From the NCBI GenBank assembly GCA_964017235.1, contig OZ024936.1, positions 46,179,028 to 46,243,027 of the forward strand: DNA of 64,000 nucleotides, written 5' to 3'. The stretch comes from Sabellastarte sp. h YS-2021. Taxonomy: Eukaryota; Annelida; Polychaeta; Sabellida; Sabellidae. Shown one piece after another: positions 6,935 through 62,251 of the stretch (within the stretch, counting starts at the first letter, position 1; the number at the start of each line of letters is the position of its first letter). The notes beneath the pieces are model-generated. The model was not told the DNA's origin. It was given only the letters and a program-made list of their open reading frames with translations, and ran no database searches. A program made the position numbers and the translations under genes.

Positions 6935-8149
6935 TGGGATTCCTGATGGTTGGGATAGCACCTAATGGCTAACCAATATACGCTGTTGCCTCATTCATTA
7001 ACTACCCACTATGTATAATGTGTGTTGAAATCAAATCATCAAACGGAAGACAAATATTTCAGCTATAATTGTAGAAGTCTTAGATTTGCATAAACTGGTA
7101 ACTATTCTCTGTTGCACTGGGTGAGCTCATTATAGAAGTGAAGCCAAGGTGATGGAAAGATGCATCTGAACAAGCTAGGCCTTCGTGAATTTCATCAATA
7201 TCTGGAGGATTAAATTCAAACAGAAATAAAGACTTTTTATTTTAGCTTTGTAGAGAGAAAACACTTCTAAGTCATTTAAAATCATAATCAAAAAGACTCT
7301 CTAAACCGCCATTTCATATTTTCAACTTGTTTTTATCTCCTTTTCGAGTATATTGGTACATTAATTCATTTAATTTGAAGGATTAAGAGACTACACATAG
7401 ATGGAGTAGGTTGGGATTTAATAATTCAAAATCTGACTCCCAACCTTACGTTTCATTTGTCCAGCTTTCTTTATTTTTTCATCATAAATAACTTTTCTCA
7501 ACAGACCACACAGTTATGAAAAAGGCTACTTAGTATAGAGAACACATGGCCACTCATTCCAAAACAAAGCAATATAATTTGAGGGTCAAAATAAAAATGT
7601 TATTTGATCATATTCAAATAGCATGAAAGTGGCTATTCAATGGGATATTACACTGTCGCATATTGGTTCATACAATATGGCTATAAAATACTATTTGTCT
7701 TTCCTTATTGAAATGTATACTCAAACCACTATTTGACCCATTCCAACTACACAAGTATAGCCCAAACCCTCTACTGATTGACCACTAATTTCATTAGTTA
7801 TCACAATCACTATGTGTCTGCTTCCACCTGGGATCGAATCTAGATTGTATGTGTTCCTATAGGCGAGTGTTTTACCTATATGAGAGGACTCGGTGGTTAT
7901 TGCTTTTGCAAATGGTACGTTGACCCTCAACTCTTTATGTATATGTTTGAATCCAGTTCATGACAATTTATGGGAAGTACAGTTGGCATTTCCTAATATG
8001 GTCATAGCAGTTAAAATGGTTATAAATGTCACCTTTCTATATCTTCCACTGGGCATAATGAAAAGACATGACTTCACCAGAAGAAAATCTGTAAAAAAAT
8101 TGCCCTGCATATAAAACCCCAATATGCCAGTTACAGTTTATCTCCTATC
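6935..8149. other. non-coding, no feature recognised
   Basis: AT-rich DNA without supported exons, repeats or RNA genes. Confidence 0.4.
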
Positions 8150-9917
8150 CTCCCCCAGTGCTTTCCACCTTCTCTACTGTTACTGAGGATCAAGTAACTA
8201 AAATCATAATGAAATCTCCAAGTAAATCGTGTTCCCTTGACCCTTGGCCCACTTTTCTTGTTCTCAATTATTTGGATATTCTCATTACTCCCATTACTTC
8301 AATAATTAATGCTTCCCTTGAACAAGGGAAGTACCCTAATTTCTTCAAGCAGGCCCATGTTACCCCCATCCTCAAAAAATCATCCTTAGACAAAGAAATT
8401 CTTAAAAACTATAGGCCTGTCTCCAATCTGAACTTCATCTCAAAGATACTTGAAAGGGTAGTGGCAGTCCAGTTACAAACTCACCTTGACGAAGCTGGCC
8501 TTATGACTGCCTTTCAATCAGCATATAGAAAACATCATTCAACTGAAAGTGCTCTCCTTAATGTCCACAATGACATTCTCCTCAATATGGCCAAAGGGTC
8601 TGTCACAGCCCTCACCCTCTTGGATCTGTCAGCCGCATTTGATACCATTGACCACACCATTCTCCTAGACAGACTTAATGTTCACTACGGTATCAGTGAA
8701 CTAGCACTTGGCTGGTTCAAATCATACCTGTCAGAAAGGACACACTCGGTCAAGGTAGGTAACACACTGTCCCATCCTGCTGCCCTCCAGTATGGGGTCC
8801 CCCAGGGCTCCGTCCTTGGTCCAATTCTGTTTTCCCTCTACACTAACCCAATTAGTTCAATCATTCACTCTCACAGCAGTATAAACCACCATTTCTACGC
8901 TGATGACACTCAGCTATACATAACACTAACACCAACAAACTTCTCTCACTCTATACAAAAACTAAAAAACTGTCTAAGCGACATTCAAAATTTCATGTCT
9001 GCAAACAAATTAAAACTCAATCCTGAGAAAACTGAGTTTATCCTGATAGGCTCCAAAAACAACCGTAAATAACTCCTTCCTCACTTTCCGATCAATATTC
9101 TCGGCAATCAGGTCTCACCAGCACAAAGTGTTAGGAACCTCGGAGTGGTGTTCGACTCCAATTTTTCATTCTCAGACCATGTGTTACAGGTCATAAAGTC
9201 CACCAGAGTTCATGCGAGAGACCTCTATAGAATCCGTCCCCTCTTAGACCTTAACACATCAGTTCTTCTAGCAAATGCTTTGGTGAGCAGCAGACTGGAC
9301 TACTGCAATTCCTTATTCTTATCACTTACAGATTTTGAGTTAAGAAGATTGCAGTTAGTCCAAAACTCACTCTGTAGGGTTGTCACCCGGTCCTCCAAAT
9401 ACTGTCACATTACCCCTCAATTAAAAAAACTGCATTGGCTCCCTATCAAATACAGGATACAATTTAAAATTGGTCTCATCACATGCAAAACTCTAAACCA
9501 GGGTGAACCAGTTTACCTTAGAGAATTAATTCATCCCTACACTTCTTCCAGGAACACAAGGCGAAGTACCCCCAAACTCACACTCCCACTTTCGACCGTA
9601 AGGTTCATAAATCAGTCAAACATTTCTCCAATTCTTTCAGTCACTATGCCCCAGTTCTCTGGAATTCCTTCCCCTTCCAAATAAGAAATAGCCCCTCTGT
9701 CACATCTTTCAGGAAACACCTCAAAACCCACCTCTTTAATTCTAGTTTTCCAACTTAGTTTCCTTCCCTCTTGGTCACACCCACAACTCTGGATTACTGA
9801 CCTTGAACGCCCCTTGACTTTCTTTATGATAATGATTTTGTTAAGTTAGCGCACTGAGTTCCCCTTTGTGGGGAAGATATTGCACCTGCAAAGCAGTAGA
9901 TTAGATTAGATTAGATT
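8150..9917 (+). mobile_element. 5'-truncated non-LTR retrotransposon (LINE, CR1/Jockey-group type)
   Basis: Reverse transcriptase and C-terminal domain are followed by a 3' UTR ending GGGGAAGATATTGCACC and a (TTAGA)n-type tail at about 9899-9917. The endonuclease half is missing, as is typical of 5' truncation during target-primed reverse transcription. A 3'-UTR copy on the opposite strand lies at 62720-62810. Left edge is approximate and no target duplication was found. Confidence 0.85.
8158..9684 (+). pseudogene. LINE reverse transcriptase, near-intact
   Basis: Residues run in the order expected for a non-LTR reverse transcriptase: YRPVSNLNFISKILERVV (about residue 80), FQSAYRKHHSTESALL, LLDLSAAFDTIDH (motif A with catalytic Asp), YGVPQGSVLGPILFSLYT (motif B), and FYADDTQLYI (motif C, catalytic DD). 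The thumb and C-terminal domain follows with NLGVVFDSNFSFSDHV, RLDYCNSLF and LHWLPIKYRIQFK. One in-frame TAA at 9070-9072 separates two segments in the same frame, and a frame change near 9597 precedes the expected ending LWNS...FRKHLKTHLF, which reads to about 9760. So it is inactive but only lightly damaged. Clade (CR1, L2 or Rex1-like) not resolved. Confidence 0.85.
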
Positions 9918-26252: not shown

Positions 26253-26352
26253 GAGGTCAAAGATTACCGGAAGCAAAGAAATTGTGTCACTCAATGTAAA
26301 CTTTTCGTTTATTTCTTTTTGGAAAAAATATTAATTAACAACACCTGGAATA

Positions 26353-26618
26353 ATGGCAGCAGACACAGAAAAAGCTAAGAAAATTAGAATGTATAGAAAT
26401 GGGGATGACAAGTTTTGCGGAAAACAAATAGTGCTTAATAAACGGAGGATAAAAACCTTTGATGCATTTTTATCCACTGTGACTTCTGAAGTAAAATATA
26501 AGGAAGCAGCTCGTTCAATTCGAACTCCAAATCATGGAACAAGAGTTGTAAACTTGGATGATCTACAAGAAGAAAATGCTTATGTTGTTTGTGGAGCTGG
26601 TCCATTTCGGCGGATAAG
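26353..26618 (+). CDS. dcdc2-like: DCDC2-family doublecortin protein, exon 1 (first DCX domain)
   Basis: Starts ATG GCA GCA and encodes most of a doublecortin (tubulin-binding) domain: KKIRMYRNGDDKFCGKQIVL corresponds to the YRNGDPFxxGxxxVV strand, RRIKTFDAFLSTVTSEV to the FDxFLxxVT helix, and IRTPNHGTRVVNLDDLQEEN to the RxLYTPxxGxxVxxLDxLQ segment, ending YVVCGAGPFRRI where relatives have YVAxGxExFKKL. The exon ends AAG at a donor (GTGAAT from 26619), leaving two bases of a codon. The next exon must supply one base. DCX proteins of this family bind microtubules, and vertebrate DCDC2 sits on ciliary axonemes. The divergent FRRI end suggests a fast-evolving paralogue (DCDC2, 2B or 2C not resolved). 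Confidence 0.85.
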
Positions 26619-26642
26619 GTGAATCCACCGTTCCATGATGCG

Positions 26643-40966: not shown

Positions 40967-41599
40967 GTAAGAAAATACAATACTGTAATTTTTTTTGTAC
41001 AACTATAGATAAATTATTTGTTTTTCAAGGTAGATTATATACTTTTGTAATAAATGAAAACTAAAGATATTTCTGTCTCAATGTGTAAATCATGTAATAA
41101 CGTTTTTAATTCCTAAAAAAAAAATAAAAACTGATTTCAAGAGTCAAATATTCTTGTCTGGAAATGATATTTCTCCAATGAAAGTTTACTGTAAATAATC
41201 CCATAGTTAAGCGTCCCGCAAGGGACGCTTGTTTGTGTATGGGAGAGCTTCAGGCTCCGCCGGCTCCGCATTTTGTTTTCCTTATAACTCTGTAACCGTT
41301 AGGCGGATTCTTTTCAAATTTGGCAGGTTTAGGCAGTAGCCTTGGGGAATTTTTTTGAATATGCTGCAGTGACATTTCAACCAATCAGAGAGGTCACATG
41401 ACCAAAAATGTCTTTTTTCGGTGGGGAAGCTTGTCCGGATGATAACTTGAAAGGAATTTTATCAATTCACCTGAAACTTGGCAAATACATTCATTCTATT
41501 AAAATCTGGAAATCATTAGATTTTGGCATTGATTGGTCAAGAAATGGCCGAGTAATTAATGATTAATTAATCATTACGAATTTTCCAAATAAGGAAAAC

Positions 41600-42360
41600 A
41601 CAAAAATGTTTATATCTCGAAAACCGTGCTAGATAGAGCGATTTCGGCGAAATTTTTGACCCGCAGGGTATCTCTGCGGAGTACTTTTCCCAATTTTCAA
41701 AAAATTTTTGTCTCGCCCAAAATGGCGGCCATTTTGAATTTTCGAAATTTTCGCAAAAATTGCAAAAGACAAAAATGCTTATATCTCAAAAACCGTGCTA
41801 GATAGAGCAATTTCGACAAAATTTTTGACCCGCAGGATATCTCTGCGGAGTACTTTTCCCAATTTTCAAAAAATTTTGGTCTCGCCAAAAATGGCGGCCA
41901 TTTTGAATTTTCGAAATTTTCGCAAAAATTGCAAAACACAAAAATGCTTATATCTCGAAAACCCTGCTAGATAGAGCGATTTCGACGAAATTTTTGACCC
42001 AGAGGGTATCTCTGCAGAGTAGTTATCCCAATTTTGAAAAAAATTTTGTCTCGCCAAAAATGGCGGCCATTTTGAATTTTCGAATTTTTCGCAAAAATTG
42101 CAAAACATAAAAATGCTTATATCTCGAAAACCGTGCTAGATAGAGCGATTTCGACGAAATTTTTGACCCACAGGGTATCTGCAGAGTAGCCATGCCAATT
42201 TTCAAAAAAATTTTGTCTCGCCAAAAATGGCGGCCATTTTGAATTTTCGAATTTTTGCGCAAAAATTGCAAAACACAAAAATGCTAATATTTCGAAAACC
42301 ATGCTACATAGAGCGATTTCCACGAAATTTTTTATCTTCAGGGTATCTCTGCAGAGCAGC
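41600..42360 (+). repeat. about 169-bp tandem array, four to five units
   Basis: Units carry ATATCTCGAAAACCGTGCTA, GATAGAGCGATTTCGACG, GACCCGCAGGGTATCTCTGC, AAAATGGCGGCCATTTTG and TCGCAAAAATTGC. It is clearly homologous to the array at 31190-32670. A partial unit recurs at 44460-44730 past the 133-bp array. Minus-strand frames such as SKWPPFLAR are repeat artefacts. Confidence 0.85.
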
Positions 42361-42361
42361 T

Positions 42362-44372
42362 ATCCCAAAGAGCTTTCACTTGGTGAAGTTTCAGACCCAT
42401 AGCTAATTACTCACCTACTCAAAATGAGTAAATGCGAATTATCTCTAAAAGTATTGCAGATAGCCAATTTTTCTCAAATAACTCATTCACCTACTTTTGG
42501 GAGAGCTTTCACTCTGTGAAGTTTCAGACCCATAGCTAATTACTCACCTACTCAAAATGAGTAAATGCGAATTATCTCTAAAAGTATTGCAGATAGCCAA
42601 TTTTTCTCAAATAACTCATTCACCTACTTTTGGCAGAGCTTTCACTTGGTGAAGTTTCAGACCCATAGCTAATTACTCACCTACTGAAAATGAGTAAATG
42701 CGAATTATCTCTAAAAGTATTGCAGATAGCCAATTTTTCTCAAATAACTCATTCACCTACTTTTGGGAGAGCTTTCACTCTGTGAAGTTTCAGACCCATA
42801 GCTAATTACTCACCTACTCAAAATGAGTAAATGCGAATTATCTCTAAAAGTATTGCAGATAGCCAATTTTTCTCAAATAACTCATTCACCTACTTTTGTG
42901 AGAGCTTTCACTTGGTGAAGTTTCAGACCCATAGCTAATTACTCACCTACTCAAAATGAGTAAATGCGAATTATCTCTAAAAGTATTGCAGATAGCCAAT
43001 TTTTCTCAAATTAATCATTCACCTACTTTTGGGAGAGCTTTCACTTGGTGAAGTTTCAGACCCATAGCTAATTACTCACCTACTCAAAATGAGTAAATGC
43101 GAATTATCTCTAAAAGTATTGCAGATAGCCAATTTTTCTCAAATAACTCATTCACCTACTTTTGTGAGAGCTTTCACTTGGTGAAGTTTCAGACCCATAG
43201 CTAATTACTCACCTACTCAAAATGAGTAAATGCGAATTATCTCTAAAAGTATTGCAGATAGCCAATTTTTCTCAAATTAATCATTCACCTACTTTTGGGA
43301 GAGCTTTCACTTGGTGAAGTTTCAGACCCATAGCTAATTACTCACCTACTCAAAATGAGTAAATGCGAATTATCTCTAAAAGTATTGCAGATAGCCAATT
43401 TTTCTCAAATAACTCATTCACCTACTTTTGGGAGAGCTTTCACTCTGTGAAGTTTCAGACCCATAGCTAATTACTCACCTACTCAAAATGAGTAAATGCG
43501 AATTATCTCTAAAAGTATTGCAGATAGCCAATTTTTCTCAAATAACTCATTCACCTACTTTTGGGAGAGCTTTCACTTGTTGAAGTTTCAGACCCATAGC
43601 TAATTACTCACCTACTGAAAATGAGTAAATGTGAATTATCTCTAAAAGTATTGCAGATAGCCAATTTTTCTCAAATAACTCATTCATCTACTTTTGGGAG
43701 AGCTTTCACTTGGTGAAGTTTCAGACCCATAGCTAATTACTCACCTACTCAAAATGAGTAAATGCGAATTATCTCTAAAAGTATTGCAGATAGCCAATTT
43801 TTCTCAAATAACTCATTCACCTACTTTTGGGAGAGCTTTCACTTGGTGAAGTTTCAGACCCATAGCTAATTACTCACCTGCTCAAAATGAGTAAATGCGA
43901 ATTATCTCTAAAAGTATTGCAGATAGCCAATTTTTCTCAAATTAATCATTTACCTACTTTTGGGAGAGCTTTCACTTGGTGAAGTTTCAGACCCATAGCT
44001 AATTACTCACCTACTGAAAATGAGTAAATGCGAATTATCTCTAAAAGTATTGCAGATAGCCAATTTTTCTCAAATAACTCATTCACCTACTTTTGGGAGA
44101 GCTTTCACTTGGTGAAGTTTCAGACCCATAGCTAATTACTCACCTACTCAAAATGAGTAAATGCGAATTATCTCTAAAAGTATTGCAGATACCCAATTTT
44201 TCTCAAATAACTCATTCACCTACTTTTGGGAGAGCTTTCACTTGGTGAAGTTTCAGACCCATAGCTAATTATTCACCTCAAAATGAGTAAATGTGAATTA
44301 TCTCTTAATAGTATTGCAGATAGCCAATTTTTCTCAAATAACTCATTCACCTACTTTTGGCAGAGCTTTCAC
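42362..44372 (+). repeat. 133-bp tandem array, about 15 near-identical units
   Basis: Unit landmarks: GAGAGCTTTCACTTGGTGAA, TTTCAGACCCATAGC, ACTCACCTACTCAAAATGAG, GCGAATTATCTCTAAAAG and CTCAAATAACTCATTCACC. Measured spacing of TCAGACCC is 133 bp. Units differ by a few bases only, with recurring variants (TTGGTGAAG or TCTGTGAAG; AATAACTC or AATTAATC) hinting at a higher-order pattern. The last unit is more diverged. Confidence 0.95.
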
Positions 44373-46268: not shown

Positions 46269-46495
46269 AGAGTAAGAAATCTAAAATTCGCCACATATCT
46301 GAAATTCGCCACATGTGAAAATACTAATGAAATAAATGAATCGTGGTGAGATTTGTTGAATGTATAGTAAATTATGGCTTTTTGAACTGAAAAATACCAA
46401 TTTTTAGACAAAAACATCATTTTCTTCATAAAATTAACTAAGGTTTTAGAGGTGGCGAATTTTAGATTCCTGGCGAATTTTAGATTTCTTACTCT
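46269..46495. mobile_element. 227-bp MITE, AGAGTAAGAAATCTAAAATT termini, copy 1
   Basis: Inverted ends AGAGTAAGAAATCTAAAATT and AATTTTAGATTTCTTACTCT, each with a second AATTCGCCA/TGGCGAATT motif inside. Two further copies of exactly the same length are at 59838-60064 and 62025-62251. Flanks here read TT...AATT. Confidence 0.9.
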
Positions 46496-50528: not shown

Positions 50529-50611
50529 ATAGAACCTGTGAAACACAGCAGAAGGTACAACAATGTTTCTGGGCGGTTCAGGAAAGTGGAAACTCGAGTC
50601 ACCACAATATT
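50529..50611 (+). CDS. dcdc2-like: DCDC2-family protein, linker and start of DCX domain 2
   Basis: Acceptor TTTTCTGTTGCAG ends at 50528, donor GTAAGA begins at 50612. Reads IEPVKHSRRYNNVSGRFRKV then ETRVTTI plus two bases. This follows the conserved linker of DCDC2 proteins, which in the human protein (from memory) reads VKPVIHSRINVSARFRKP followed by a TIFL strand. Entry phase is 0; exit leaves TT, and the next exon supplies T to give Phe, completing TTIF-VYANN. The 83-base length and phase match both neighbours, which is the strongest support. Confidence 0.87.
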
Positions 50612-51865
50612 GTAAGATACTCAAGTATATTGAAATATACTTGTTTTGTTTTGTGTGTTTAAAGCAGTGGACATGATAATGTTGGTTTCCAAGCATAAAC
50701 TAAGTATTGAGATAACTCACAAGTCATAACCACTATCTCTTCAACTATACAGTTTTGCCGTTTGACTTTTATTTTTTCAGTGATTCAAGTTCTGATCAGG
50801 GTTGGTACCAGAATATTTGTACTAAAGTACTAATCTGGCTACCTTCCATTTGTATGTAACCACAACCATTTTCCTCGCTTAATTTGACTATTTTGACATA
50901 AGTTAAATTTATTCTGTTAAATTGCAGAAAAATATTGGACATTATTTTATCATATTCTGTCAATAATATATTACATGTAGCTATTTTCTCAAAAATAAAA
51001 ATTTTCAAAACACCCATCAGTGTTCATATTTAAACATCAGTTGTGTATCCTGTACGCACATTGATAACTTATTTCATGGTGTTTACTTAATCAAACGCAC
51101 CTGGTTTTCATAGAATTGCTGCTTCTGGGAACTCAGGATAAAATTTCGTTGATAAAAAATACATTAAGACCTACTACTCTAGAAAGATACTGGTCTGTGT
51201 GAATAGTTACGAGTCTCGTGCCAGTGAAGGGTGGGGTGGGTATTAATTTCACACACCTGGTAAAATGGGCTATTGCGACAAATTTATTTTAAAAAAAAGA
51301 CAAAAAACATCAAATGTCTGTTAAAAGAATGGAAGTATGTGAAAGATAAGTATTATATAAACAAGCCAGACTGAAAATGAGGTGTCAATTTTGTTATTTA
51401 CGGAAGTAAACAATATTTTAGCGGTTTTACTGGTGGCTAGTCATAACTTTGTACTGAGTTTCTAAACACAGTCGGCCTGTATTTTGGAATAACCAGGGAA
51501 CCCTGTCACAACTCAAGTAAAAACACAGCTACAACTTTCCAATCAAATTTTCAAAAATTGCTTTGTTTTAAAAATTTGATTTCAATTTTGAAAATACTAA
51601 TAAAGGTATTTTGGTTTCATTATTCCTTTTTAATTCAATGGTTTACAAGCTGATTTTACCAGAACACAGCTGATATGTTGTAGCTGCCAATTTCAAGAAA
51701 GTACAGCCTTAAGTAGATCATCAAAGACAAATAATCAATTCTGGCTTGAATGTCGGTCAGAAAAATACATGATCGGTGATTCTTAATATTAAACCTAGAC
51801 ATAGAGTAGTACAGTACGTCCTGCATCTTGTACATTCTGCCTCAGTGTTTTGTCTTTGTTTTCAG
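50612..51865. other. intron DNA, nothing recognised
   Basis: No repeats or exons recognised. Confidence 0.35.
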
Positions 51866-51991
51866 TGTATATGCCAACAACCACCCCGAGCAGGCATACA
51901 GGCTGGTACTGACATGCAGGATGATGCAGAGCATGAGACAAATACAGGACCTGATCACTGAAAAAACTGGACTCATCAGGCCCTGTTGCAT
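51866..51991 (+). CDS. dcdc2-like: DCDC2-family protein, first half of DCX domain 2
   Basis: Acceptor TTGTCTTTGTTTTCAG ends at 51865. After one carried base it reads VYANNHPEQAYRLVLTCRMM, then QSMRQIQDLITEKTGLIRPC and C plus two bases. It aligns along its length with the first half of DCX domain 2 in DCDC2 (the pattern ANGD...ASRLLIPRKTLNQW...MVTEKITL). The donor GTGAGT starts at 51992, and the two carried bases AT plus A from 58026 give Ile before VYTMDY. The usual Asn-Gly-Asp turn is replaced by NNHPE, and the Arg-Thr segment by CRMM, so the domain is divergent. The last 18 coding bases also form part of the first unit of the minisatellite that follows. Confidence 0.9.
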
Positions 51992-52285
51992 GTGAGTGTC
52001 AACTAAGTACATATGTTTATGTAGGAGACATCAGGCCCTGTAACATGTTAGTGTCAACTAAGTACATATGTTTATGTAGGAGACATCAGGCCCTGTAACA
52101 TGTGAGTGTCAACTAAGTACATATGTTTATGTAGGAGACATCAGGCCCTGTAACATGTTAGTGTCAACTAAGTACATATGTTTATGTAGGAGACATCAGG
52201 GCCTGTAACATATGAGTGTCAACTTGGTACATATGTTTATGTAGCAGACATCAGGCCCTGTAACATATGAGTGTGAACTAAGTAC
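51974..52285 (+). repeat. 55-bp minisatellite, left part, overlapping exon end and donor
   Basis: Units begin CATCAGGCCCTGT, pass through CATGTGAGTGTCAACTAAGT and end CATATGTTTATGTAGGAGA; period measured as 55 bp. Unit 1 starts inside the coding exon (18 bases) and includes the real donor. Later units carry CATGTGAGTG, CATGTTAGTG or CATATGAGTG at the donor position. The array is cut by the DIRS-like element and resumes at about 56723. Confidence 0.95.
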
Positions 52286-52309
52286 ATCATTTTTATTGCA
52301 TTAATACAT

Positions 52310-52482
52310 CCTATCCAATGGACAATTGCTTTACCGGTCGGCGCGACCGGTCCCGCCAAACGCCAGAAAAAGACGTCCTGTATATACTACCGGCAGGACC
52401 GGTCACAGAGTGTGCATTCGCCAGGTGGCGCATCGTACTTCATTTCCTGTTTACCTCTTGATGTCATAGCATCTTTTTCGTT
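52310..52482 (+). repeat. DIRS-type element left inverted terminal repeat
   Basis: Begins CCTATCCAATGG and includes the self-complementary ACCGGTCGGCGCGACCGGT. It is mirrored at 56508-56680. Confidence 0.9.
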
Positions 52483-52604
52483 TGGCGCGAAAGAGTGTGC
52501 AGAAGTTTTTCTTCAGAGATACGTTTTTGAAGTTTTACAACGAACTCTTCCAAGTTTCATGTTTTTTATTAGTACGGAGTAATTCTACTACCTTAATGAT
52601 CATT

Positions 52605-54562
52605 ATGTCGTCTCCTGGACAGAAGCGAGGTTCTTGCGGGCACGTTATGGCCCTTTTCGACAACCATAAGAAATGCGCGCGTTGTCGTGACAAGAGGGTG
52701 GGAGACGACCCCTGTGTCAAGAAGCTGGATTGCCAGATCTGTAAGTCTTTTACACCTGCGCAGATCCACCAGTTAGCAACTCTGACCTACAAGGAAAGGA
52801 AAGAACGCTCTGAGCAGAAGAAGACTGAAGGTAATGCAAGCACGACCCCCACTCTAGTGGACCCTTCAGAAGTTACACTGTTGGGATGGGTTAGCTGTGA
52901 CAAGTCTCCCTCTGTTGATTCTACTCCAAAGAAGAAGAAGCGTTCTGATGGCTCCCCAAGGTCTAGTAAACGGAAACATAGCAGCAAACCTACTTCAGAC
53001 GACCTCAAGTCCCTTGATGACAAGTGGAGTGAGAGATTTTCACGTCTAGAAGCTATGCTGGTAAACCAATCTTTTGCTGTTCCGGTGAGACCGGTGACCT
53101 CTACCTCTGTGGTGCCCAGAGAACACCCTTTCTTTGATCCGGGTGCTTCTTCTAGTGTTATGTCTTCTGAGGGCACTGGTGACGTTGCTACGCAGTTGAT
53201 GGCTACCCAACCTCCGCTGGGGGTTCCCGGTACAGAAGCTGGGAGAGCTGGAGTTGAGAGTGCTACCCACCCTGTTCAGGGCCCCGGTACCTCTGAAGTT
53301 TTAGCCACCCAACCTTTACTGGTTCCCGGTGCAGGGACGGCCACCCAGCCTGCACAGGCTCCTGGTGCGGGTCCTGAGGTTCTGCCTGCCGGTGCTGAAA
53401 CTACGCTGCATAACCTGTCGCCTCCCATTGGCCAGAACTCTGAGGTTGCTAGGGAATATGATAGTGAGGCTGAGTTGGATGGGGAACCGGCATCACCGGC
53501 TAGTATTCACTGCCAGGGTGATTTACCGGACACAGCTACAGATCAGGACCTCTCTGAAGATGCCAATTACAGGGAAACTATTAGAGGGGTGAGAAGTTTC
53601 ATGAACTGGCATCACATCCCAGATTATGACAACTCAGCTGCTTCTATAGATGATAACCCCTTTGCCAGTTCCAGAGAGAAGACTACCGGTAAAGTGTCAG
53701 TTAAATTGCCGGTTGATGAATGGCTCTGCAAAAAACTGGAGAAACTGAATGTAACTATTGCTGAAGGTTATCCTTCTAGAAATTCTGAAACCAGTGGACT
53801 GCTACGTGACCAGTTTGTAAAGACTCCTCGCTTTTCAAAGTGGTATCACCGTATGATATGTAAGCAATTAAGAAGGGAGACGCGTCTACCCAGGCTGTAT
53901 CACACTGGTCTCCGGAGCCTGCAAAGCTGAACAGTGTGTTCTCTAGGGTCGCAAGACGAAGTTTACCTTCTGCTCCAGCTTCCCGTACGTTCAGCCAGGA
54001 TACCCTTAGAAGGTGGGAGAAGGTGTTCAGGGAGCAATCCGTGATGTGTAATCACGCTGCTGGTTTATCTAGATGCCTTACTAAAGTGCAGGATTCAATG
54101 GTTACCCAGCTGAAGTCTCTCCGGTCAGATTCATCAAAGGGCAAGAGTGCTGAAAGAATGCAGCAGGCTGTTGAAGAGCTTGAATATCTGGTGACCTTTA
54201 ACAGGTCAATTTCCCAAGCTATGCAGCGCACCATGCAGGATCTCTCAGAGGGAGTGTTCATCAGCATGGCCAACCTCACTCTGGCACGTCGGGATAGCTA
54301 TCTGGAGTTTATACGTGGTGGAGTGAAACCTGATACCTTAACTGCATTACGCACTTCTCCAGTACATCTACTCTCATTATTCCCAGACAGCTTACTGGTC
54401 AAGGCAGAAGATGATATTTCACGTAGTGAGGAGAGGCGTTCTATGGGTAACACACAGAGGAAACCCGGATGTTTTCATCCGTACGTTCCCTCCAATACTA
54501 GACCTTCACACCAGCCGGACCAGAAGCCCACTACACCGGCTTGGAAACAAATCAGAGACTGA
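52605..54562 (+). pseudogene. gag-like region of the DIRS-type element
   Basis: The likely start is ATG at 52605. The N-terminal Cys/His-rich motif (CGHVMALFDNHKKCARCRDK, then CVKKLDCQICKSF) is the usual DIRS gag signature. A basic stretch with KKKKR and SKRKHSS follows, then a Pro/Ala-rich segment with about five degenerate ATQP...PG repeats (around 53190-53400), then an acidic segment and a helical C-terminal part. No capsid fold can be claimed from sequence alone. Part of a broken fossil. Confidence 0.75.
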
Positions 54563-54870
54563 TAAACTGGTCAGAAAGGTGGAGGTAAAGCCTCAAACTT
54601 CAATCAAAAGCCGGCCAAAGGGTTTAAGAAGCATAAATGACAATTATTGTGTCTCAAATGTGGTTGGATTGAAGGACTCTGTAATTGTATCCGACAAGAT
54701 GGATGGTTTGAACCCACCACCAGTGACTTTAAATGTAGACTCTCATGTTGCAAATGCTCATATTGTTACCGGGTTGCTGCAAAGGAAAGGCATAAATCCA
54801 CAATCCAACCAAGCAGTCCTTCCTTTTAGAGGCACTGTCTCAGCTGATAAACAAGAATGCAGTCGAACCG

Positions 54871-55440
54871 GTGGAAAATCAAAACTCACTGGGGTTTTAC
54901 AACCGGCTATTTTTAGTACCCAAACCCAACGACCGGTGGAGACCGATCCTAGACCTGAGCACCTTGAACACCTTTTTAAACACAGGGACGTTCAAGATGG
55001 AAACCCCAGAGACAATAAGAACCTCCCTCCAAGTAGGGGAGTGGGTCACATCCATAGATTTCAAAGATGCATACTTCCATATACCCATTCACAGTCAGTC
55101 CAGGAAGTACATGCGCTTTCACCTCCAGGGTCGGTCCTACCAGTTCAAAGCCCTACCCTTTGGTCTATCCACAGCTCCCATGGAGTTCACAGTGGTGGCC
55201 AAAGAAGTCAAACTCATGGCACTTCAGAAGGGTATAAGGATCCACCAGTACCTAGACGACTGGCTGGTGAGAACCTCTATCCACCACACCTGTCTCCAGC
55301 ATACTCAAACCCTAGTCACACTTTGTCAGGAATTAGGGTGGCTGGTGAACAAGGAAAAGTCAGAGCTGGTTCCCAAACAGGTCTTCAACTTTGTAGGTTA
55401 CCAGTTCGACCTGAAAGAGGGCAAGGTCAGACCAACAGAA
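54871..55440 (+). pseudogene. reverse transcriptase region of the DIRS-type element
   Basis: Recognised by FLVPKPNDRWRPILDLSTLN, VTSIDFKDAYFHIPI (motif A), FKALPFGLSTAP (motif B), HQYLDDWLVR (motif C) and NFVGYQFDL. The LPFGLSTAP and YLDD forms are typical of DIRS and Ngaro enzymes. Part of a broken fossil. Confidence 0.85.
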
Positions 55441-55489
55441 GAACGTTGGAACGTTTGTACCCCTCACCCAGCTTCCTATCCAAGAACCA

Positions 55490-55985
55490 GCTGGCTAAGG
55501 AAGGTCCAGATAGTGTGGCTCCAGTGGTCATCCCAGCCCTGGCACCATCTCTGGATAGGTCACTCAAGGGTGACAGGTCCCTATGTCCAGTTAGAGCCCT
55601 GCGCTACTACTTGGACAGGACTGCAGACCTCAGGCAGAATAAGGAGTTAGTCTTTGTCTCCTTCAAGAAGGGGTTTGATAAAGACATCTCACCTGCCACC
55701 ATCTCCTCATGGATCAAACAGACTGTGGTTCTGTGTTATGAGCTCTCTGATCAGGAGGCCCTCACCTTACATCAGGTTAAAGCCCATGATGTTAGGGCCT
55801 TTGCTGCCTCTAAGGCTTTCCAATCAGGGATTTCCTTAGATCAGATCTTGTCAGCCTGCCACTGGAAATCTCACAACATCTTCACCCAATTCTATTTGAA
55901 GGATGTTGCCTGGGCTGACTCGGAGCTTTTCCACCTGGGACCTGTAGTGGCTGCCCAGCAGGTGCACCACCAGGCCCAGAATTGA
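55490..55985 (+). pseudogene. tyrosine recombinase region of the DIRS-type element
   Basis: Shows CPVRALRYYLDRT, the HQVKAHDVRAFAAS segment with the His-x-x-Arg box, and HNIFTQFYLKDV containing the putative nucleophile Tyr. Integration by such enzymes normally makes no target duplication, consistent with none being seen here. Part of a broken fossil. Confidence 0.8.
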
Positions 55986-56507
55986 GGGGATGTTTGTATA
56001 TATGTAGATATGTACATATTGTAAATATGTTAGATATGTACATATTGTAAATATGTTAGATATGTACATAGTGTAAATATGTTGAATGTACATATATTTT
56101 CAAAAAAAAAAACCAAAAAAAAAACTGTGACTTGCTTCCCTTGGGAAGTTTATTTCTTCTGGGACTGAACTCAGCCCCACTCTCTCTCTATTTTTCCCTT
56201 CTCAAACCTACTCTGGAAGGGAAGAAAAACATCGGTAGACTCCCGGTTAACCGGTGAGTTGGTGGCCGACCTTGACCGGTCAGGGTTCTCTGACCCTAGG
56301 TCAAATGGGCCTGTACTATTTTGTTTTTGTTATGAGTTCACAGAAGTCCCTAGCTGCTTACCCGCCGACCAAGCGGTAGTTATTCAGCAATTGTCCATTG
56401 GATAGGATGTATTAATGCAATAAAATTGCAAATTTAATCCAATGGGCAGGCAACGCCCACCCAACCGGCCCCGCTATCAGCTTACTAGGGGTCTTACTAG
56501 GATTAGA

Positions 56508-56680
56508 CACGAAAAAGATGCTATGACGTCAAGAGGTAAACAGGAAATGAAGTACGATGCGCCACCTGGCGAATGCACACTCTGTGACCGGTCCTGCCGG
56601 TAGTATATACAGGACGTCTTTTTCTGGCGTTTGGTGGGACCGGTCGCGCCGACCGGTAAAGCAATTGTCCATTGGATAGG
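56508..56680 (-). repeat. DIRS-type element right inverted terminal repeat
   Basis: Inverse complement of 52310-52482 with about two differences, ending GTCCATTGGATAGG. About 40 bp of AT-rich sequence follow before the minisatellite resumes. Confidence 0.9.
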
Positions 56681-56722
56681 GTATTAACTTATAAAAATTT
56701 AATTTACTTATTAAACTTGCAA

Positions 56723-56918
56723 GTTTATGTATGAGACATCGTGCCCTGTAACATATGAGTGTCAACTAAGTACATATGTTTATGTAGGAGACATCAGGCT
56801 CTATAACATGTGAGTGTCAACTAAGTACATATGTTTATGTAGGAGACATCAGGCTCTGTAACATGTGAGTGTCAATTTAGTACATATGTTTATGTAGGAG
56901 ACATCAGGCCTAGTCTCT
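56723..56918 (+). repeat. 55-bp minisatellite, right part
   Basis: Three to four further units of the array that starts at 51974, several with an intact CATGTGAGTG. It is interrupted by the SINE at 56919. Confidence 0.93.
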
Positions 56919-57152
56919 GGGGCCACGGTGGCTGACTGGTAACACTCTCCCGTCCTACCTCTGAGATCAGAGTTTGGTTCCCGGCCCAACCTCAAGTGGG
57001 AAAGTTAGTAGTTGCTTGCCGATGGCTGGCAGTTTACAATACAGAACCTTGACCAACTGTATGTGCTGGTTTCCTCTGTCCATAAAACTACCCGTCGTGA
57101 TATGACCTATATAATGTGTTGAAAGCGACGTTAAAACCCAAATAAATAATTA
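56919..57152 (+). mobile_element. tRNA-derived SINE, family 1, in the minisatellite
   Basis: Head GGGGCCACGGTGGCTGACTG, a degraded B box, body GTTGCTTGCCGATGG and CTACCCGTCGTGATATGACC, tail GACGTTAAAACCCAAATAAA. A clear target duplication is not seen because both flanks are repeat units. Confidence 0.9.
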
Positions 57153-57159
57153 AATCAAA

Positions 57160-57897
57160 CCCTGTCATGTGTGAGTATAAACAGAGTACAAAAGTTTCAA
57201 TAGGAGACACAAGCCTGTCACATGTGAGTGTAAACATAGTGCAAAAGTTTCAATAGGAGACACAAGGCTGTCACATGTGAGTGTAAACATAGTGCAAAAG
57301 TTTCAATAGGAGACACAAGGCTGTCACATGTGAGTGTAAACATAGTGCAAAAGTTTCAATAGGAGACACAAGCCTGTCACATGTGAGTGTAAACATAGTG
57401 CAAAAGTTTCAATAGGAGACACAAGGCTGTCACATGTGAGTGTAAACATAGTGCAAAAGTTTCAATAGGAGACACAAGGCTGTCACATGTGAGTGTAAGC
57501 ATAGTGCAAAAGTTTCAATAGGAGACACAAGCCTGTCACATGTGAGTGTAAACATAGTGCAAAAGTTTCAATAGGAGACACAAGGCTGTCACATGTGAGT
57601 GTAAACATAGTGCAAAAGTTTCAATAGGAGACACAAGCCTGTCACGTGTGAGTGTAAACATAGTACAAAAGTTTCAATAGGAGACACAAGCCTGTCACGT
57701 GTGAGTGTAAACATAGTACATTTATACAGTCCTACCTGAATTGCTAACATTAATACATACATTTGTATTGGAAACATCATTCACTGTCACAAATGAGTGT
57801 AAACTTTGTACAGATGTTAATACAGGAGACATCAGACCCTGTGTAAGTGTAAACTTTGTACATACATTTCTATCGGAGACATCAGACACTGTCAGTT
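57160..57897 (+). repeat. 53-bp variant of the same minisatellite
   Basis: About ten homogeneous units (CATGTGAGTGTAAACATAGT, GCAAAAGTTTCAATAGGAGA, CACAAGGCTGT), spacing measured as 53 bp, followed by three diverged units to 57897. It aligns unit-for-unit with the 55-bp form and keeps GTGAGT in most copies. The array stops about 130 bp before the acceptor at 58025. Confidence 0.93.
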
Positions 57898-58025
57898 TCA
57901 CCATATCCTTGACAAACATAACAAAATACCAGATTTCATTCATTTCAAAACCCTGCAGACTAATTTTGATCTTTGTCAATGTTCAGAACACATGTATTTA
58001 AATGCCAGGTATGTAATTGTTTCAG

Positions 58026-58175
58026 AGTATACACAATGGACTATGAACAAGTCAGTCACCCACAGCAGTTTGAAAATGGGACGTATTATGTGGCTGTTGG
58101 CAAAGATCAGCATCTGTGCAAGATTTGTTATGGCATCCAGAGACCAGACTTCAAAACTTCACCAAAACTGAGAAG
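58026..58175 (+). CDS. dcdc2-like: DCDC2-family protein, second half of DCX domain 2
   Basis: Acceptor TAATTGTTTCAG ends at 58025. The first base completes Ile, then VYTMDYEQVSHPQQFENGTY, YVAVGKDQHLCKICYG, and IQRPDFKTSPKLR plus two bases. This matches RLYTLEG...ELENGQFYVAVGRDKFKKLPY of DCDC2 family members; ENGxxYVAVGxD is the clearest family mark in the window. The donor GTATTT at 58176 is weak for its +4 to +6 positions but is the only one in phase with the next exon. Usual Lys-Lys after the glycine-aspartate is replaced by HLCK. Confidence 0.92.
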
Positions 58176-59837: not shown

Positions 59838-60064
59838 AGAGTAAGAAATCTAAAATTCGCCACATATCTGAAATTCGCCACATGTGAAAATACTAATAAA
59901 ATAAATGAATTCTGGTGAGATTTGTTGACTGTATAGTAAATTAAGACTTTTTGAACTGAAAAATACTAATTTTTAGACAAAAACATCATTTTCTTCATAA
60001 AATTAACAAAGGTTTTAGAGGTGGCGAATTTTAGATTCCTGGCGAATTTTAGATTTCTTACTCT
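59838..60064. mobile_element. 227-bp MITE, AGAGTAAGAAATCTAAAATT termini, copy 2
   Basis: Same length and ends as 46269-46495, with a few percent difference by eye. Confidence 0.9.
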
Positions 60065-61021: not shown

Positions 61022-61705
61022 ACCATGTCTGTCAAGTAGGTGCGCGGAAAAAAGGGGCCCAGTAAAAAAGGGACCTAGAAAAAAGGGGCCCAAGAAAAAA
61101 GGGGCCCTGGAAAAAAGGGGCCTACAGTTTTTAGAAAAGGGGAAAAAAGGGGCCCACTTTTTAAAATTTTTGATAAAACAACATTAGGGATATCAACCAA
61201 CTTTTATTTAGTTTATATAACAAATGAACTTTGATTAAGATACAAGAATGTACAATATTAAACATACAGTACAATAAGCACATAATAAGAACAAAAACGT
61301 GTAACATTTAAGTGAATACAAAATTCACTGTGGATTGCATTTTAAAATTGAAGACCCTTTCAAGTAGCCACCATCAAACAATCTAAGCAATTCAATGCAT
61401 CTACTCATGCACTTCAATGCATGCAATTACAAATTTAAAGCCTTTAAAGTAGGTTAAAACATAATAAAGTTTGAAAAAACAGTGATAAATTTTTATTGCA
61501 TCAAGGAAATTTCTAATAAATCTTTAGGCATAATCATAAACAAAAATTAGAAAAAAATACTGGCCCCTTTTTTTGCCCTTTTCCAAAAACTGTGGGCCCT
61601 TTTTTTCCTGTGCCCCTTTTTTCTTGGGGCCCATTTTTTCTAGGTCCCTTTTTACCTGGGCCCCTTTTTTCCTGGATTTGTCCATCAAATACCTGCCAAC
61701 CCTGA
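61022..61705. mobile_element. foldback element with GGAAAAAAGGGGCCCA repeats
   Basis: Each arm (about 61040-61160 and 61560-61675) holds five to six tandem 16-19 bp units of the type GAAAAAAGGGGCCCA, inverted on the right arm, around an AT-rich centre of about 400 bp. It directly abuts the MITE at 60231-61020. Lysine/glycine-rich minus-strand frames across it are artefacts. Confidence 0.75.
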
Positions 61706-62024: not shown

Positions 62025-62251
62025 AGAGTAAGAAATCTGAAATTCGCCACATATCTGAAATTCGCCACATGTCAAAATACTAATAAAATAAATGAATTGT
62101 GGTGAGATTTGTTGACTGTATAGTATATTAAGGCTTTTTGAACTGAAAAATACCAATTTTTGCACAAAAACATCATTTTCTTCATAAAATTAACTAAGGT
62201 TTTAGAGGTGGCGAATTTTAGATTTCTGGCGAATTTTAGATTTCTTACTCT
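62025..62251. mobile_element. 227-bp MITE, copy 3, next to an exon
   Basis: Same length and ends as the copies at 46269 and 59838. Its right end lies 29 bases before the exon at 62281, so the intron branch point may fall inside or at the edge of the element. Confidence 0.9.

Follow-up and report, generated by a model that had tools for sequence, protein, structure and literature searches.

A single-locus minisatellite probably derived from an exon-intron junction of a DCDC2-like gene, with multiplied splice donors

The window analyzed here, the whole 64,000-nucleotide stretch at 46,179,028-46,243,027 of contig OZ024936.1 in a 1.79-Gb eukaryotic genome, contains on its + strand a gene with doublecortin domains, to which the working name DCDC2-like is given from domain matches. 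The following intron seems to contain about twenty tandem copies of a segment that spans the end of one coding exon of this gene, exon A, and includes the splice donor. The best explanation of the whole, which is considered likely, is a minisatellite restricted to this locus that would have arisen by duplication of the junction, with copied donors that would be passive and a first donor that would remain the one in use. All positions below are those of the window. The features of the junction and of the exon that follows the intron are:

51866-51991, + strand: coding exon A (126 nt), encoding the first half of the second doublecortin domain and ending in phase 2
51969-51991, + strand: final 23 bases of exon A, homologous with the beginning of the unit (19 of 23 bases)
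51992-51997, + strand: putative real splice donor GTGAGT, assigned from the frame with exon B
58026-58175, + strand: coding exon B, encoding the remaining half of the second doublecortin domain, in phase with exon A

Exon A ends with CAT, followed by GTGAGT, with the boundary at 51991/51992, and the array reported by Tandem Repeats Finder (TRF) starts at 51974, inside the exon. This agrees with the original prediction, in which the last bases of exon A were the start of the first 55-bp unit and were followed by the donor CAT/GTGAGT. The last 18 exonic bases are indeed in unit 1, but the overlap reaches 5 bases further, to 51969, and 2 of the 5 bases of this extra stretch differ between unit 1 and unit 3. 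Comparison of these two units (A1 and A3) shows identity at 32 of 32 positions in the intronic part and at 19 of 23 in the exonic part, and the similarity stops upstream of 51969 (8 of 32 matching). Homology between the array and the end of exon A is supported by these matches. The exonic bases involved number only 23, with 4 of them different, which might suggest that an unrelated intronic satellite adjoins an exon whose end merely resembles the unit. However, a contiguous match of at least 19 of 23 in the single relevant register has a probability of about 1e-8 with random bases (2.7e-7 if a per-base match of 0.3 is assumed), and elsewhere in the window, with both strands scanned, the exonic 23 bases have no match better than 16 of 23. 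Chance similarity was rejected on these two grounds and is regarded as extremely improbable.

The repeat units were aligned on the donor (n = 23: A1-A6, B1-B3, C1-C11, and D1-D3) and fall into four blocks, which are separated at two points by mobile elements:

51969-52287, + strand: block A, 55-bp units A1-A6, with A6 cut by the retroelement
52288-56722 (ends approximate), + strand: DIRS-like retroelement inside the array, with inverted ends, an internal complementary stretch, and a reverse-transcriptase open reading frame (ORF)
56723-56909, + strand: block B, three 55-bp units (B1-B3) plus part of a fourth
~56910-57159, + strand: dispersed repeat resembling a short interspersed element (SINE), between blocks B and C
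57160-57717, + strand: block C, 53-bp units C1-C11, with GTGAGT in all eleven
57718-57895, + strand: block D, degenerate ~50-bp units without GTGAGT and with one GTAAGT at 57843

In the TRF output, the blocks appear as arrays at 51974-52296 (55-bp unit, 5.9 copies, 93% matches), 56723-56909 (again 55 bp, 3.4 copies), 57161-57717 (53 bp, 10.5 copies, 97% matches), and 57796-57892 (~50 bp, 1.9 copies). Judged from their sequences, the four look like one array split by two mobile elements. The last bases of block A are ...AAGTACAT (unit position 44), and GTTTATG (position 47) opens block B, so that the register is resumed within 2 bases across the retroelement; block B breaks off at ...GGAGACATCAGGC (unit position 13) and block C picks up at CCCTGT (position 13). 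Because the register resumes across both insertions, the blocks were probably once continuous. With the two insertions left out, the array amounts to about 1.24 kb, as calculated from the block limits.

The two insertions, a DIRS-like element of ~4.4 kb and a SINE-like repeat of ~250 bp, had been omitted from the interval as originally described. The reverse-transcriptase ORF of the larger element matches Pfam RVT_1 (E 1.1e-22), and a weak match to Phage_integrase (tyrosine recombinase; E 4.3e-4, 20.5 bits) lies under the curated cut-off of 27.1; a third ORF, at 52611-53924, matched no Pfam family. On comparison by eye, CCTATCCAATGGACAATTGCT is common to the left end of the element, the reverse complement of its right end, and the reverse complement of 56381-56440. 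Inverted ends, an internal complementary stretch, a reverse transcriptase, and a tyrosine recombinase are characteristic of DIRS elements. A 541-bp probe from the 5′ part has at least 39 other copies that are 96-98% identical (best 40 of 2469 candidates scored), and this level of identity indicates that the element is young. The SINE-like repeat has at least 39 other near-full-length copies, 87-90% identical (best 40 of 11257 candidates scored), and is taken to be older than the DIRS-like element; within 56910-57159, ARAGORN found no transfer RNA and Rfam gave no match. In the 3′ part of the retroelement, at 56181-56259, a pyrimidine-rich tract is followed some 35-70 bases later by a strong donor-like GTGAGT (56254), which by eye could form a pseudo-exon.

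Occurrence of the unit at many unrelated loci, the observation that the original prediction had set against itself, was looked for genome-wide, and matches were found in this window alone. A whole-genome DNA search with the sequence of block A returned two places, both in the window, and one with the sequence of blocks C-D returned a single place, also in the window; this search passes over common words and assigns scores to the best candidates alone, and the locus specificity it indicates is strong, if incomplete. A 35-place unit pattern, with up to 3 mismatches allowed, gave 8 forward matches, each of them within this array, and the reversed control gave 0. Since the unit is found at this locus alone, the overlap with the exon does not reflect the landing of a dispersed satellite, and an origin from such a satellite or from a transposon-borne repeat was rejected within the limits of the search.

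The array had been described as born from the exon-intron junction. The homology on which that description relies holds, and the direction from exon to array is favored and probable rather than proven; the order of exon first and array second is accordingly given a good probability. Growth would have started with tandem duplication of a ~50-55-bp junction segment, comprising ~23 bp of the exon end, the donor, and ~30 bp of the intron. It would have continued in waves inside the intron, represented by the degenerate ~50-bp units of block D, the homogeneous 53-bp units of block C, and the 55-bp units of blocks A and B beside the exon, and the array would later have been split by the SINE-like repeat and the young DIRS-like retroelement. 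Both the direction and the time order of this growth are what we infer from the sequence.

The end of exon A encodes a doublecortin loop and keeps to the reading frame of the domain. The GLIRPCC encoded there aligns without a gap to GLTQAAR and NLRKPAR of other doublecortin domains in this genome; its L is common to 4 of the 8 other aligned domains, at a position where units A2-A6 and B would encode D, and its P is also present in a further domain (L027). A search of the DCX family for sequences that could polarize the exon end gave 12 matches, none of them usable, and a protein search for a paralog with the same intron returned the two exons of this gene alone.

In the reverse order, an intronic tandem repeat or its unit would have supplied the exon end via unequal exchange or conversion, moving the splice donor to unit 1. 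Several points agree with that order or otherwise weigh against the exon-first one. In the exonic part of the unit, the exon stands apart from blocks A and B, and the 32 bp that open the intron are nested among the units of block A. The doublecortin loop is variable here and, compared with that of human DCDC2, lacks one residue; for that reason the exon end is not proven to be ancestral. The differences between A1 and A3 are 4 of 23 in the exonic part and 0 of 32 in the intronic part (Fisher p 0.026), a contrast that does not fit a simple recent duplication and would need later homogenization with a breakpoint near the donor. Diverged single copies of the unit may also have been missed, given how the genome search treats common words and selects candidates. 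On the other side, the exon end carries the doublecortin domain on in frame, with the shared L and the P of L027, and no further locus with the unit was found. An array that preceded the exon end is thus considered rather unlikely.

The copied donors are unevenly preserved. GTGAGT is kept in 14 of the 22 downstream units (1 of 5 in A2-A6, 2 of 3 in B1-B3, 11 of 11 in C1-C11, and 0 of 3 in D1-D3), and the whole 9-mer CATGTGAGT of the real donor is present in 11 of these 14 decoys. More than ten decoys had been described across the intron, up to about 130 bp from the next acceptor. The number stands, but the motif has been lost in four of the five units nearest the exon, and 13 of the 14 decoys lie at least 4.8 kb past the true donor, as a result of the retroelement insertion, which leaves one nearby (52102). 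The acceptor is 325 nt away from the last GTGAGT (57701) and 183 nt from the repeat-borne GTAAGT (57843); the value of ~130 bp applies to the array end alone. The changed donors are GTTAGT in A2 and A4 and ATGAGT in A5, A6, and B1. GTTAGT therefore appears in alternate units, as would follow from the duplication of a 110-bp pair (interval 52047-56760), and the ATGAGT change is found on both sides of the retroelement.

Donor strength was expressed as the energy of pairing with U1, and the 455 GT sites in 51801-58100 were ranked. The real donor and 13 of the 14 decoys have -7.5 kcal/mol, the remaining decoy -7.4 kcal/mol, and the GTTAGT units -3.5 kcal/mol. Counting the real donor itself, 21 of the 455 sites equal or exceed its strength, among them 13 repeat decoys, 6 retroelement sites, and one site (58009) shortly before the acceptor; the array is thus the main, yet not the sole, source of donor-like sites. 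The intron region contains 16 copies of GTGAGT, namely the real donor, those of 14 downstream units, and one (56254) in the retroelement, and the motif is common at large, with 30 occurrences on the + strand and 31 on the - strand of the whole window. Only one full-strength donor-like site is located within 300 nt of the exon start:

52102-52107, + strand: sole full-strength decoy donor near the exon, in unit A3; its use would give a 236-nt exon

An exon extension of ordinary length is possible from 52102 and the two weak GTTAGT sites alone, and the next decoy, at 56810, would make an exon of 4944 nt.

Reading on past exon A gives TGC ATG TGA, in accordance with the immediate stop that had been claimed, and any downstream GTGAGT decoy would add ATG TGA. 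The first donor is most likely kept in use and is predicted to be dominant, as it closes a 126-nt exon; the copied donors would be passive by-products of an array that is probably tolerated, not used. Classical work indicates that duplicated equal donors can favor the intron-proximal one, which would tell against this prediction. RNA with a premature stop and exons downstream is expected to undergo nonsense-mediated decay. Transcripts spliced at a later donor would probably be degraded in this way, because TGA is met at once, although donor choice and decay are again what we infer. For new introns in Drosophila, decay has been argued to hide weak splicing from selection (PMC2809761), an argument that fits a passive array.

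Alternatively, the decoys may be used as alternative 5′ splice sites, mainly at 52102, to give unproductive transcripts that lower or tune the output of the gene. The pairing energy of the real donor in 13 of the 14 GTGAGT decoys, its 9-mer in 11, and the immediate stop that every decoy would add are compatible with such use, as is human IFI6, in which downstream repeat units are reported to act as donors (PMC4526556). However, the loss of GTGAGT near the exon and the distance of the other decoys make it improbable. It is more doubtful still that the array is a copy-number-variable brake, in which repeat number and a retroelement that shifts the decoys would tune gene output between individuals; if it were, alleles with more intact donors near the exon would divert more transcripts into decayed forms with an immediate stop. 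Conservation of the donors as a sign of selection on the array is unsupported, since GTGAGT is lost in block D and near the exon, and the intact donors of block C reflect the simple homogeneity of that block. Loss of donors near the exon would likewise be weak evidence of selection, because the losses consist of two changes shared by neighboring units and probably represent few events.

The gene contains two doublecortin domains in tandem (Pfam DCX: E 5.5e-14 in the 26353 region and E 5.8e-9 for exons A and B joined), and two further exons lie upstream of exon A:

26353-26618 (ends approximate), + strand: first doublecortin-domain exon, in ORF 26335-26619 (Pfam DCX E 5.5e-14)
50529-50611, + strand: linker exon before the second doublecortin domain, assigned from sequence and frame

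The Pfam DCX match of the second domain crosses the junction of exons A and B (residues 15-69), and the sole doublecortin chain matched in a PDB search was the human DCDC2 domain 2dnf (E 9.2e-5; second domain). The junction of the linker exon with exon A is in frame and, read from the sequence and its translation, gives TTIFVYANN; for the linker exon, tblastn with an approximate DCDC2 segment gave a match that is weak by itself (E 0.13). The phases of the first-domain exon and the linker exon do not fit, which indicates at least one more exon between them.

The window also contains other repeats. An array with a 169-bp unit lies at 41595-42368, and immediately after it comes a 133-bp tandem array at 42369-44372 (15.1 copies, 97% matches). 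Two-copy tandems of the 18-bp unit ATCTAAAATTCGCCACAT, or of a close variant, are present at 46279-46314, 59848-59883, and 62035-62070, and a similar sequence is found on the other strand near 62209 (62209-62245). The 16-bp repeat GGAAAAAAGGGGCCCA is present in tandem, with its reverse complement in tandem ~500 bp on (61046-61122 and 61593-61675); this inverted pair perhaps represents the ends of a mobile element. At 8095-9681, two long adjacent reading frames resemble a non-LTR (long terminal repeat) reverse transcriptase, as judged by eye from the translation.

The locus provides a clean natural case of a minisatellite seemingly begun at a splice junction, with many identical 9-mer donors in one intron and donor-less units as an internal control. 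If the exon still ends correctly, the choice made by exon context among many equal donors could be measured; if the exon end is misplaced, repeat number would be linked to the output of the gene. Literature searches listed no paper on this locus.

The minisatellite of human IFI6 (G1P3, 6-16) has a 12-bp unit that is in frame. Unlike it, the unit here is 53-55 bp long, shifts the frame, and brings in a stop at once; two mobile elements interrupt the array, and the further donors are predicted decoys. The two are alike in that minisatellite units carry splice donors: here the array includes the exon end and donor, and later units keep the donor sequence, and in IFI6 two downstream units are reported to act as donors, with three mRNAs as the result (PMC4526556; the minisatellite is the subject of Turri, Cuin and Porter, 1995, Nucleic Acids Res 23:1854). 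Intron gain through tandem duplication of genic sequence, as described for the potato RdRp gene (PMC4974935), likewise involves within-gene duplication that copies splice signals; by comparison, an existing intron has been lengthened here and its donor multiplied, with no new intron shown. READ1, a compound short tandem repeat in intron 2 of human DCDC2 that has been studied as a regulatory element, is also an intronic tandem repeat in the same gene family; no link to an exon junction is claimed for it in the part of the source available (PMC4789805), unlike for the array here, and the resemblance is probably a coincidence. Donor-bearing minisatellites are already known from IFI6, which limits the surprise; what is new here is the gene, the frame-shifting unit, and the splitting of the array by mobile elements.

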